From contig NZ_JAUCZH010000001.1 in the NCBI RefSeq assembly GCF_030373185.1, forward strand, positions 806,001-870,000: a stretch of 64,000 nucleotides of DNA. The letters are read 5' to 3'. Origin of the DNA: Tabrizicola sp. (GTDB lineage: Bacteria; Pseudomonadota; Alphaproteobacteria; Rhodobacterales; Rhodobacteraceae). Positions 25,895 through 60,360 of the stretch are shown piece after piece. Made by a program: the position numbers and the translations under genes. Position 1 is the first letter of the stretch. Every line of letters begins with the position of its first letter. A model generated the notes under the pieces. It made no database searches. It was given only the letters and a program-made list of their open reading frames with translations, and was not told the origin of the DNA.

Positions 25895-27439
25895 CTATCG
25901 CTTGCCGAAGATCGAGCCAAGCACCCCGCGCACCAGTGCCTGACCGGACTTTGTGCCAAGCTGGCGGGCGAAGCTTTTGGCAAAGGCGGTGCCGACGGAA
26001 TCGGACCTGCTGCTGCCAGACTTTGACGGCGTTCTGGCCTTGCCGTCGTAGCGGCGGGCGCGGTCAAACTCTTGCTTTTCCTCGGCGATGCGCGCTTCGG
26101 TTTCGGCCGCCTCGCGCGCGGTCTTTTCGGCTCGGGCGCGCAGACGCTCCCAGGCGCTGTCGCGGTCAATCGTGGTGTCATATTTTCCGGCCACCGGCGA
26201 AGCGGCGATGATCGAAGCGCGCATGGCTTCATCCAGCGGGCCAAGCTGGCTGGACGGCGGACGGATCAGGGTGCGCTGGGCGACGCCGGGGATGCCCTTG
26301 GCCTCCAGCAAGGACGTCACCGCCTCACCCGTGCCAACGTCGCGAATCGCGTCTTCGATGGCAAAGGCAGGGTTCGGGCGATAGGTCTGTGCCGCCATCC
26401 GCAGGTCTTTCTGATCCTTGGCGGTAAAGGCGCGCAAGGCGTGCTGCACGCGGTTGCCAAGCTGGCCAAGGATGGTTTCTGGCACATCGGCGGGGTTCTG
26501 GGTCACGAAGTAGACCCCCACACCCTTGGAGCGGATCAGTCGCGCGACCTGTTCCACCTTTGAAATCAGCGCCTTCGGGGCATCATCGAACAAGAGATGC
26601 GCCTCGTCGAAAAAGAAGACCAGCTTTGGCTTGTCTGGGTCGCCCACCTCGGGCAGCATCTCGAAAAGTTCGGCCAGAAGCCAAAGCAGGAAGGTTGCGT
26701 AAAGCCGGGGCGACTGCATCAGCTTGTCAGCGGCGAGGATGCTGATCCGGCCAAGGCCTTCCGCGTCGGTCAGCATCAGGTCGGCCAGATCCAGCGCGGG
26801 TTCGCCAAACAATCCGGCCCCGCCCTGATTTTCCAGCACCAAAAGCCGCCGCTGGATTGCACCGATCGATTCCTTTGACACCAGACCGTAGCGCGCAGAA
26901 ATCGCGTTGGCGTTTTCAGCGACGAAGGTCAGCAGCGCTTGCAGATCCTTCAGGTCCAGGAGCGGCAGTTCCTCTTCGTCCGAAAGCCGGAATGCGACGT
27001 TCAGCACACCTTCCTGCGCCTCGGACAGCTCCAGCAGGCGCGACAGCAGCAGCGGCCCCATCTCGAACAGGGTCGCACGGACCGGATGACCCTTTTCGCC
27101 GAACAGATCCCAGAAGATCACCGGAAAGGCGCGGTATTGCAGATCAAGCCCGATGGTGGCCGCGCGCCTGGAGAAGGGCTCGTGCAGTATGTGGGTTGCC
27201 GAACCAGAGGCAGCGATGCCGGAAAGATCACCTTTCACATCAGACAGAAATACCGGAACCCCGGCCGCCGAAAAGCCTTCGGCAAGGATTTGCAGCGTGA
27301 CCGTCTTGCCGGTGCCGGTGGCGCCGGCAACCAGCCCGTGCCGGTTGCCATATCTCAGCAGCAGGGACTGCGGCTGGCCATAGGCTTCGCCACCGCCACC
27401 GACAAAAATGCTGTCCACCGACTGTTCTTCATTGGCCAC
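25895..27439 (-). CDS. HerA-like ATPase (helicase HerA-like / DUF853 family)
   Basis: The 514-residue protein has Walker A GATGTGKTVTLQ at about 39-46, Walker B LVFFFDEAHLLFDD, and VYFVTQNPADVPETILGQLGNRVQHALRAFTAKDQK, which together define the HerA-like (DUF853) subgroup of FtsK/HerA ATPases. The C-terminus is charged and Arg/Ala-rich (AEKTAREAAETEARIAEEK). It starts at GTG 27439 with GAGGTGA five to six bases upstream. No NurA nuclease is nearby. Classical HerA acts in DNA end resection; the function of this stand-alone bacterial subgroup is not settled. Confidence 0.88.
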   Translation of the reverse strand: MANEEQSVDSIFVGGGGEAYGQPQSLLLRYGNRHGLVAGATGTGKTVTLQILAEGFSAAGVPVFLSDVKGDLSGIAASGSATHILHEPFSRRAATIGLDLQYRAFPVIFWDLFGEKGHPVRATLFEMGPLLLSRLLELSEAQEGVLNVAFRLSDEEELPLLDLKDLQALLTFVAENANAISARYGLVSKESIGAIQRRLLVLENQGGAGLFGEPALDLADLMLTDAEGLGRISILAADKLMQSPRLYATFLLWLLAELFEMLPEVGDPDKPKLVFFFDEAHLLFDDAPKALISKVEQVARLIRSKGVGVYFVTQNPADVPETILGQLGNRVQHALRAFTAKDQKDLRMAAQTYRPNPAFAIEDAIRDVGTGEAVTSLLEAKGIPGVAQRTLIRPPSSQLGPLDEAMRASIIAASPVAGKYDTTIDRDSAWERLRARAEKTAREAAETEARIAEEKQEFDRARRYDGKARTPSKSGSSRSDSVGTAFAKSFARQLGTKSGQALVRGVLGSIFGKR

Positions 27440-27565
27440 AAGTCACCTCACAAATCCGATGAGAGCCGGATCCGGCGGCCCGGCCGCCATCTTTCCCGCC
27501 GATGTTTTCCGCAGTCAAAATACATTGTTAAGCCCTTTGTGCCAGTCTGAACGTGCCGGGGCTGT

Positions 27566-27636
27566 GTTCATCATGGTTCCGTTGGTGACTTCCTCCCTGT
27601 GGACTGGCCGCGCCCTTGAAAAGGCGCGGTTTTTTT
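27566..27636 (+). ncRNA. Candidate small RNA A, anti-Shine-Dalgarno type
   Basis: Core layout: hairpin GT(T)CATCA / TGGTGAC (27566-27589, one bulged T), a single-stranded segment containing CCTCCCTGTGGACT (27592-27605), then a terminator with 7-bp stem CCGCGCC/GGCGCGG (27608-27629) and seven T. The upstream gene is on the opposite strand, so this terminator cannot belong to a preceding coding gene. The CCTCCC motif is complementary to ribosome-binding sites, as in alphaproteobacterial trans-acting RNAs such as suhB/ar14 or the CcsR group; family membership is unproven. The 5' end is not determined. A second copy lies at 60288-60360. Confidence 0.7.
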
Positions 27637-27671
27637 ATGACGTCCACATGACTGACCCCGGCAGAATCCCG

Positions 27672-27700
27672 TTGACGGGCCTCAAAATCCGCCGTAGCGT
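27672..27700 (+). promoter_or_regulatory. Candidate sigma-70 promoter
   Basis: TTGACG (27672-27677) and TAGCGT (27695-27700) are separated by 17 bp. This fits alphaproteobacterial housekeeping promoters. It lies 36 bp after terminator A and would start a transcript near 27707 that runs into the terminator at 27750-27777. Confidence 0.45.
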
Positions 27701-27706
27701 CCGAAC

Positions 27707-27777
27707 CCATGAAGTCGGCCAGTCCGACAGGGAGCAATAAGAAAATTCGAAAAGGGCCGGTTCTGCTGGCCCTTTTT
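27707..27777 (+). ncRNA. Candidate short transcript C ending in an intrinsic terminator
   Basis: A roughly 70-nt transcript is predicted between the promoter-like pair at 27672-27700 and the terminator AAAAGGGCC (27750-27758) / GGCCCTTTTT (27768-27777). It contains a small internal repeat (GTCGGCCAGTCCGAC, able to form a short hairpin). A short reading frame from 27709 would run through the terminator and is not convincing. The IalB-like gene starts 144 bp downstream and probably has its own promoter. Confidence 0.35.
27750..27777 (+). terminator. Intrinsic terminator of transcript C
   Basis: Nine-base stem AAAAGGGCC / GGCCCTTTT with a nine-base loop and a T-run (27773-27777) that is followed by further T-rich sequence. 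No annotated gene precedes it on this strand, which is why it is treated as the end of a small transcript. Confidence 0.75.
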
Positions 27778-27920
27778 CATTCTTTTTCCCGGTTGCGGAA
27801 TGTGGCTTGCCCAAGCCTTGAGGCAGAACCCCGCTGAAGCGCGCTTTCCGACCTGACTTGGCCAGCCGGTCATGCTAATGACCTGCCACAATTACCGTCC
27901 GACCAAAGGATCCGCCCAAG

Positions 27921-28592
27921 ATGGCAATGACCAAGACCACTGCGCTTGCCCTTTTTCTTGCCCTGACCGCAACGCCGTTGATGGCCCAGACGACAGAAGC
28001 CCCCGCCTCCGATGAAGCCGCAGCAACGGATACCATCGCCGACGCTGCCACTGCCGACGGGCTGTCGATGGGGACGGAACTTGGAGGCGGCGACGGGATT
28101 GGGGACACCTATACCGCCGCCAACTTTGAGGCATGGGAACAGCGTTGCGTGCGCACCGAAAGCGGGATTGACCCATGTCAGCTTTACATGCTGTTGAAGG
28201 ATCAGGATGACAATTCGGTGGCCGAGTTCACCATGTTCGGCCTGCCCAAGGGCTCGCCGGGGCCAGCCGTCGCCGGGGCTACCTTCATTGCACCGCTTGA
28301 AACGCTGCTGACCGCCGGCATGACGCTGCAGATCGACAGCGCCAAGCCCAAGGCCTATCCCTTCACCTTCTGCACCCAGATCGGCTGCGTGGCACGGCTT
28401 GGCTTTACCGCCGAGGAAGTGGCGCAGATGAAGAAGGGGGCGGCGGCGACGATCGTGATCGTGCCTTTTGTCGCACCCGACAAACAGGTGGAACTGAAAG
28501 TGTCGCTGAAAGGCTTTACCGCCGGGCTTGCGGCGGTCGATGCTGCCAATGATGCGGCCGATGCGGCGACAGCCCCCGCGGGCAACGAATAG
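27921..28592 (+). CDS. IalB (invasion-associated locus B) family periplasmic protein
   Basis: The 223-residue protein has a Sec signal peptide (TKTTALALFLALTATPLMA, cleaved after LMA). An acidic, Ala/Thr-rich linker follows, then an IalB domain (about 65-210) with WEQRCVRTESGIDPCQLYMLL and FTFCTQIGCVARLGFTAEEV; the four cysteines in these two segments are characteristic of the family and probably form disulfides. The name comes from Bartonella, but family members are widespread in free-living Rhodobacterales, where the role is unknown. ATG 27921 or 27927 could be used. It converges with the ketoacyl synthase gene. Confidence 0.87.
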   Translation: MAMTKTTALALFLALTATPLMAQTTEAPASDEAAATDTIADAATADGLSMGTELGGGDGIGDTYTAANFEAWEQRCVRTESGIDPCQLYMLLKDQDDNSVAEFTMFGLPKGSPGPAVAGATFIAPLETLLTAGMTLQIDSAKPKAYPFTFCTQIGCVARLGFTAEEVAQMKKGAAATIVIVPFVAPDKQVELKVSLKGFTAGLAAVDAANDAADAATAPAGNE

Positions 28593-60179: not shown

Positions 60180-60246
60180 CGCCGGCCGAATTTCTGCCAT
60201 GCAGCAAACGCATACCGGCAATGCCGAATTTGCGGGCAGTCCGCCC

Positions 60247-60275
60247 TTGTTTGCGCCATCAAGCGCCTCTATTTG
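60247..60275 (+). promoter_or_regulatory. Candidate promoter of small RNA B
   Basis: TTGTTT (60247-60252) and TATTTG (60270-60275) are spaced by 17 bp and would start a transcript near 60282, a few bases before the first hairpin of RNA B. The match to consensus is modest. Confidence 0.35.
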
Positions 60276-60287
60276 CAGCTTCGAAGC

Positions 60288-60360
60288 AACGATGAGCGTG
60301 CTCTCGTTTCTTCATACCTCCCTGTTGGACTTGGCCGAGCGGAAGCTCGGCCTTTTTTTT
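60288..60360 (+). ncRNA. Candidate small RNA B, anti-Shine-Dalgarno type
   Basis: Core layout: hairpin AACGA(T)GAG / CTCTCGTT (60288-60308, bulged T, CGTG loop), a single-stranded segment with CCTCCCTGTTGGACTT (60317-60332), and a terminator with perfect 8-bp stem GGCCGAGC/GCTCGGCC (60333-60352), GGAA tetraloop and eight T. The segment from CCTCCC to the terminator stem differs from RNA A only by two single-T insertions. It lies 108 bp after the LysR stop and its T-run touches the stop codon of the convergent sigma factor gene. Read-through from LysR ending here is an alternative. Confidence 0.7.

Follow-up and report, generated by a model that had tools for sequence, protein, structure and literature searches.

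A candidate sponge RNA conserved in tandem with a Sor-type small RNA in Rhodobacteraceae

In the window, by which we mean the whole stretch of 64,000 nucleotides analysed here, a conserved candidate RNA gene, element 2, lies directly 3′ of a Sor-like small RNA (sRNA), copy A, and carries the complement of the core of the sRNAs SorX and SorY. In our view, element 2 probably acts as a constitutive sponge on SorX, SorY and copy A, with copy A as a third trans-acting sRNA of the Sor type. A first-pass annotation of the window had described copy A and a paralogue, copy B, as anti-Shine-Dalgarno sRNAs and had overlooked element 2.

Research on SorX and SorY in R. sphaeroides goes back about a decade and treats them as stress-made sRNAs that act on transporter mRNAs. 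Published papers on R. sphaeroides sRNAs (PMC6238624, PMC8307010, PMC5089854, PMC11354728, PMC3413700, PMC3688512, PMC5036791, PMC9438474, PMC7821165, PMC8625941) describe both as Hfq-bound and RpoHI/RpoHII-dependent, and report potA as a target of SorX and takP as a target of SorY, both of them transporter mRNAs. The tandem locus comprises the following features, in window coordinates; the terminator scan covered the copy A region only.

25895-27439, minus strand: flanking gene, HerA_C helicase-like (PF05872, 715.7 bits)
27520-27548, plus strand: promoter-like block ATACATTGTTAAG ... TGCCAGTCT of copy A, conserved in alignments
27552-27637, plus strand: copy A sRNA (predicted start), with a variable-sequence hairpin, the core and an intrinsic terminator
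27592-27610, plus strand: core CCTCCCTGTGGACTGGCCG of the copy A sRNA
27606-27637, plus strand: intrinsic terminator of copy A (folds and terminator scan)
27672-27700, plus strand: element 2 promoter, TTGACG-N17-TAGCGT (alignment and counts of TTGAC, spacer and -10 box)
27707-27781, plus strand: element 2, candidate sponge RNA (predicted start; covariance model R1 and fold)
27714-27734, plus strand: anti-core GTCGGCCAGTCCGACAGGGAG, hairpin GUCGG-CCAGU-CCGAC followed by single-stranded AGGGAG
27749-27777, plus strand: element 2 terminator (terminator scan, fold, T-run downstream)
27853-27881, plus strand: CTGACT-N17-TAATGA, a second, separate promoter-like site, assigned to the ialB-type gene (family motif counts)
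27921-28592, plus strand: flanking gene, IalB domain (PF06776, 125.6 bits)

Sor-type RNAs in the window and the genome

The pattern CCTCCCTGT(T)GGACT occurs at exactly two sites in the window (27592-27605 and 60317-60331, both on the plus strand) and at none in 100 dinucleotide shuffles of it, which bears out the first-pass annotation's two copies with a common core and terminator. Their blocks from CCTCCC to the terminator are, as it had described, only two single-T indels apart, and folds place a GC-rich terminator with a T-run at the end of each copy. Its account of paralogous sRNA genes with a CCUCCC core and an RNA structure under selection also holds as judged by sequence, and conservation in related genomes is borne out by the Sor core pattern, which is found in 183/198 family genomes, against 12 for the backward pattern. 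In the class sample the pattern occurs in 18/190 genomes, of which three are family members, and only 4 of the 15 carriers outside the family have the TTGGAC form. Both copies exist, but two is too low a count for the genome, which holds a third core at C5:102150 (L075); this is SorX (72.4 bits against the curated 46.6) and lies, by our reading, downstream of an OmpR-type gene.

Copy B is a SorY-type sRNA with the following features.

60246-60275, plus strand: heat-shock-sigma-like promoter, CTTG ... CCTCTATTT (predicted from the CTTG box)
60284-60360, plus strand: SorY-type sRNA (RF02651, 53.9 bits, E 1.9e-10; RF02784, 43.4 bits)
60317-60331, plus strand: core
to 60360, plus strand: terminator

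Its neighbours are a LysR-type gene on one side and, on the other, a sigma-70-like gene whose 3′ end is the nearer. Although its scores fall below the curated values for both SorY (RF02651, 111 bits) and SorX (RF02784, 46.6), the SorY cut-off is very narrow, because only one of 198 family genomes, that of R. sphaeroides, reaches it. When aligned to the SorY model, copy B has the hairpin, the CUUCAUACCUCCCUGUUGGACU core and the GCCGAGC terminator, and it resembles SorY in the order of its parts, with the CAUACCUCCCUGUUGGACUU core and a CTTG-type promoter. This predicted promoter is of the RpoHI/RpoHII type, with its CTTG box at 60246; a CTTGW box is present in 32/38 SorY-type loci, against 2/38 in the reversed control.

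Copy A occupies the 481-bp gap (27440-27920) between the divergent HerA_C (minus) and IalB (plus) genes, and its terminator therefore serves no coding gene, as had been proposed; the accompanying statement that copy A follows a gene on the opposite strand does not fit this gap. It shows the Sor-type layout of a hairpin, CCUCCCUG..GACU and a terminator, akin to the SorX/SorY core, and shares with SorX (RF02784) the arrangement of core and terminator. Unlike SorX, which sits at an ompR-type gene's 3′ end, it has its own intergenic locus between HerA_C and IalB, together with its own promoter-like block, and scores 21.3 bits in the SorX model (gathering 46.6); against the SorY model it scores 16.3 bits, and by eye it is without a promoter of the SorY type. 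On these features copy A looks like a third paralogue type of the Sor family, beside SorX and the SorY-type copy B.

The gap is matched in 34/61 genomes searched, our own included, and the alignment begins with a promoter-like ATACA-n-TTAAC, then TGCCAG, then a hairpin in which bases vary and pairing is mostly kept; in its 3′ part CCTCCCT is nearly invariant, the middle variable and the terminator begins with ACTGGCCGCG. The bulged-T hairpin that had been placed from 27566 is one of two near-equal folds in the window (-32.4, against -31.1 for the other, on a slightly shorter piece), and in one fold the RNA's own 5′ arm pairs with part of the core; the hairpin starts nearer 27552 in related genomes, upstream of the proposed position. 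Variation in sequence with retention of shape, also claimed at first pass, is clear among the 121 distinct copy A 5′ regions, which have a mean z of -2.45 (118 below 0, 84 below -1.5) and at least six pairs in every case; the window's own region is weak taken alone (z -0.79). TTAA[CG] is found in the upstream block of 102/121 loci (control motif, 7/121) and ATAC-N4-6-TTAA in 95/121. By eye this block is unlike the SorY CTTG box, and we know of no sigma consensus that fits ATACA-N-TTAAC; the site at 27520-27548 may be that of an activator or of an alternative sigma factor.

The two known families suggested for these RNAs, suhB/mmgR and CcsR/cuckoo, have a C-rich stretch and a terminator in common with the copies. 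CcsR/cuckoo RNAs carry tandem CCUCCUCCC motifs and are located downstream of a ccaF1-type gene. Membership of suhB/mmgR (RF00519) is rejected by the Rfam scores of copies A and B (19.7 and 23.3 bits, where the gathering score is 41), and membership of CcsR/cuckoo on the basis of motif and neighbours: CCUCCUCCC is absent, the core being CCTCCCTG, and the neighbours are HerA_C/IalB and LysR/sigma-70-like genes. Matches to 'Betaproteobacteria_toxic_sRNA' were set aside as weak (22.6 and 23.5 bits against 50), as was a minus-strand sRNA copy at 27734, where by eye a T-run terminator is absent. Elsewhere in the family, tandem Sor-type cores lie 105-223 nt apart at four loci (L033, L034, L035 and L036, in G022, G021, G148 and G124), and further occurrences of CTCCCTGTCGGAC with a hairpin and a T-rich stretch (L010/L038 in G010, L043 in G175) stand, by eye, directly behind the stop codon of a reading frame rich in Ala and Lys, possibly a fourth location of the core.

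Element 2 and its surroundings

After the copy A terminator and on the same strand follow TTGACG-N17-TAGCGT, then AAGTCGGCCAGTCCGACAGGGAGCA, which is almost unchanged among relatives of the genus, and a GGGCC terminator; the fold exposes AGGGAG after a five-pair hairpin. At the level of sequence, then, element 2 has its own promoter and its own terminator, and the promoter is, from its boxes, of a housekeeping type. Of the 160 instances collected, 157 have TTGAC at 25-70 nt upstream; 17 is the best spacer in 153/157 (16-19 tried), the -10 box is exactly TAGCGT in 103/157, and a T-run pattern follows in 150/160. An alternative identity as a small protein (an MTKSASPTG frame in some species) was rejected by eye, as the ATG is often absent and the six-base form of the loop shifts the frame.

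The pattern GTCGGCCNGTCCGNNNGGGAG occurs once per genome in 121/198 family genomes (backward, 0). The covariance model R1, built on promoter plus element, finds exactly one element 2 in 171/198 (156 of the 174 good ones); its seed was 36 pattern-found sequences, some from genomes searched later, which match by construction. R1 matches 3/190 genomes of the class sample, all three of them family members, and 0/187 alphaproteobacterial genomes outside the family. The 191 collected element-2 sequences are a mixture from our own genus, the family sample and the matches listed from a scan of named genomes. A pattern leaving only four positions free supplied 160 of them; the other 31 came through the model, from 31 of the 50 genomes with an R1 match and no pattern match, and are free of pattern bias (19 five-base loops, 12 six-base).

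Element 2 has copy A on its 5′ side, similarly oriented, in 127/155 loci, and on the opposite strand in 0/155; in the remaining 28 it is below the match cut-off, and at least four of these retain a diverged copy by eye. In all, copy A is present beside 152 of the 191 sequences. By tblastn, IalB follows on the same strand in 133/135 loci (the two exceptions being L200 and L210) and HerA lies upstream on the other strand in 117/128. Downstream of element 2, [CT]TGAC[AT]-N16-18-TA is found in 142/153 loci, with a spacer of 17 in 137 (reversed control, 3/153).

The greater constancy of IalB than of HerA invites the reading of element 2 as a 5′ leader to the ialB-type gene, in which transcription mostly ends at the element 2 terminator and to which Sor RNAs bind, tuning ialB. 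UpsM, which the R. sphaeroides literature describes as a leader-derived sRNA in front of mraZ, offers a precedent. We nevertheless rate this reading unlikely because of the separate promoter-like site that follows element 2 in those 142 loci. It also has to accommodate the two loci without an IalB match; moreover, the anti-core is not in the terminator stem, so that pairing has no obvious way to switch the terminator.

Complementarity to the Sor core

GTCGGCCAGTCCGACAGGGAG is the reverse complement, G-U pairs included, of the SorX/SorY core. Full-length RNAduplex comparisons are dominated by GC terminators, and partners were therefore scanned in 15,990 windows of 40 nt covering both strands of the 64 kb. 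Its own antisense aside, the element 2 5′ block pairs best with copy B (-40.2) and next best with copy A (-38.1), and reciprocally the best partner of the SorY core, apart from its own gene's antisense, is element 2 (-35.4). The strongest partner of the core within the window is the adjacent element 2.

This complementarity is conserved together with the fold. The hairpin is kept in 190 of the 191 sequences, and against the 14-nt Sor core 177 can pair at all 14 positions and 14 at 13; among the 31 model-found, divergent sequences the corresponding numbers are 26 and 5. Substitutions mostly preserve pairing (121 of 135 cells, 7 of 10 types), and the 14 cells that break it are confined to one loop base (9) and the last base (5). 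In one genome (G158) two stem pairs are changed on both sides, and core pairing is retained both times; in another (G013) the SorY core has one changed base without compensation in element 2. Cofolding of whole RNAs with element 2 gives a clear gain for the genome's own SorY (-17.4 against -6.2 for shuffles, sd 2.7) and for its own copy A (-19.7 against -8.6, sd 3.1, best shuffle -20.0). The gain is weak for its own SorX (-7.4 against -3.2, sd 2.5) and for copy A of R. sphaeroides (-11.6, with shuffles at -7.0, sd 2.8).

Copy A is not an ideal partner for element 2, since its core usually has a mismatch or a missing base: only 10/152 retain the SorX/SorY form GTYGGACT, and the commonest cores are CCTCCCTGTCAGACTGG (48/152) and GT[CT]GACTGG. 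Its two flanks each match element 2, but a single lesion usually separates them. In the core at 27592-27610 and across the family loci, both flanks are kept and the central GG is nearly always broken. The usual lesion may weaken capture, protect from cleavage or simply reflect relaxed constraint. A six-base loop in element 2 accompanies an extra U in copy A (5/10, against 4/142 otherwise).

The lesion bears on a further reading, in which a read-through transcript would fold the copy A core and element 2 into one long-range hairpin, or the two would make up a protein-bound inverted repeat in the DNA. The two inverted repeats are about 120 nt apart in the window, and the upstream position of copy A in most loci agrees with such a pairing in cis; GTYGGACT is, however, lost in 142/152 copies of copy A and kept in 19/20 SorY-type RNAs from divergent genomes, and element 2 is also found without a recognisable copy A and with a promoter of its own. 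We regard this reading as extremely improbable.

Element 2 also occurs together with SorY across genomes. It is present in 171 of the 187 genomes with a SorY-model match (absent from 16) and in 0/11 of those without one at E 0.01; Fisher's test, which ignores relatedness, gives 3.8e-11. Two of the unmatched genomes (G014, G157) do have an exact core, and among genomes lacking both the exact core and the SorY-model match element 2 is found in 0/9. Fifteen genomes have no exact core, and two of them (G013, G069) carry element 2; both give a match to the SorY model. Among all genomes with such a match, 2/171 of those with element 2 and 4/16 of those without it lack the exact core. These data weigh on the possibility that element 2 is an ordinary trans-acting sRNA with mRNA targets, its match to the Sor core stemming from inverted duplication or a shared target motif. 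Its own promoter, hairpin and terminator would suit such an RNA, as would the 28 loci without copy A above the cut-off, diverged copies among them notwithstanding. Against this stand the absence of element 2 from all 11 genomes without a SorY-model match and a core complementarity that, despite variation, stays at 13 or 14 of 14 in every one of the 191 sequences, including the 160 with pattern bias, and we think the possibility quite unlikely.

As for messenger targets, a scan of our own genome for CAACAGGGAG before ATG gave four matches, two of which are SorX and SorY read in antisense; no match came from the backward control, and our own estimate of chance is about one. The other two (L326 and L327, at C3:12271 and C4:296733) hold the motif at the position of a ribosome site, ahead of genes that, named from their translations, encode a binding protein of sugar-transporter type and a cyclase-type product; these are possible Sor targets, about as numerous as chance predicts. 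They and the absence of backward matches are in keeping with the broad anti-Shine-Dalgarno repression first suggested for these RNAs, in which element 2 would be irrelevant, as are the complementarity of CUCCCU to ribosome sites of the AGGGAG type and the transporter mRNAs named as SorX and SorY targets in published work. Such repression as the whole account is very unlikely in our view: the conserved core exceeds the length needed to match a ribosome site, two sites are near the estimated chance level, the targets reported for SorX and SorY are specific (potA and takP), and element 2 is left unexplained.

Proposed function and comparison with known systems

Element 2 as a sponge would work as follows. 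The copy A core, CUCCCUGU..GACUGG, would pair with target RNAs, as a trans-acting sRNA does. From its housekeeping-type promoter to its own terminator, element 2 would give an RNA of about 75 nt that displays the GUCGG-CCAGU-CCGAC hairpin followed by single-stranded AGGGAG. The latter would offer a toehold for the CUCCCU stretch in SorX, SorY or copy A, from which the duplex could zip on through the hairpin until up to 14 or more pairs, counting G-U, stood without a break. The captured sRNA would be inactivated through occupancy or decay. With element 2 made at a constant level and SorY induced by stress, the Sor RNAs would act only above a stress threshold. More tentatively, we propose that Rhodobacteraceae possess a single-copy constitutive sponge, placed in tandem with a target of its own, that buffers three oxidative-stress sRNAs (SorX, SorY and copy A), with copy A possibly a tuned partner. 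The copy A lesion sits exactly where pairing would otherwise be continuous and could release or reload the sponge; as a tuned partner, copy A could couple its own promoter to SorX/SorY activity.

If most of the family, including R. sphaeroides 2.4.1, does encode a constant sponge that matches both SorX and SorY, the activity of these two would depend on the ratio between the RNAs as well as on induction. The locus would then also exemplify an sRNA that has stayed next to its sponge, as in 127 of the 155 loci examined. A Sor sponge was not mentioned in the matches of a literature search, which covered papers other than the primary ones on SorX, SorY and StsR (Peng 2016, Adnan 2015, Gruetzner 2021) and texts containing part of the element in RNA letters.

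Genome G051 can be identified as R. sphaeroides 2.4.1 by two coordinates: its SorY and SorX matches start at 1,632,645 and 2,598,225, in agreement with the published 1,632,642 and 2,598,224. Its copy A/element 2 tandem lies at about 1,426,535-1,426,760 on the minus strand (the element 2 counterpart at about 1,426,535-1,426,602, minus strand) and is flanked by a catalase gene and an IalB gene. Neither RNA matched an Rfam 15 family at E up to 0.1, and the literature search linked no named sRNA to the tandem. The name RSs2778/UdsE, suspected for element 2 from katE being RSP_2779, was dropped. From the pairs of RSs number and position for RSs1624 (1,724,505), SorY (RSs1543; 1,632,642) and SorX (RSs2461; 2,598,224), RSs2778 is estimated to lie far from 1.43 Mb, and RSs numbers are independent of gene numbers, because SorX is RSs2461 yet adjoins RSP_0847. 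UdsE is described as a 5′-UTR sRNA.

Control of one sRNA by another is already represented in R. sphaeroides by UpsM and StsR. UpsM and element 2 are both terminated RNAs ahead of a gene; in published descriptions, UpsM is a 206-nt leader product before mraZ without another start site, whereas element 2 precedes ialB with its own promoter-like site. StsR is described there as 72 nt long and RpoH-driven. Element 2 shows the extended, conserved complementarity to an sRNA pairing region by which sponges are recognised. Enterobacterial sRNA sponges, such as SroC for GcvB, carry a dedicated complement to the pairing region of an sRNA. Element 2 is alike in having such a complement; unlike SroC, it has a gene-like promoter of its own, is found family-wide and stands in tandem with one matched sRNA paralogue.
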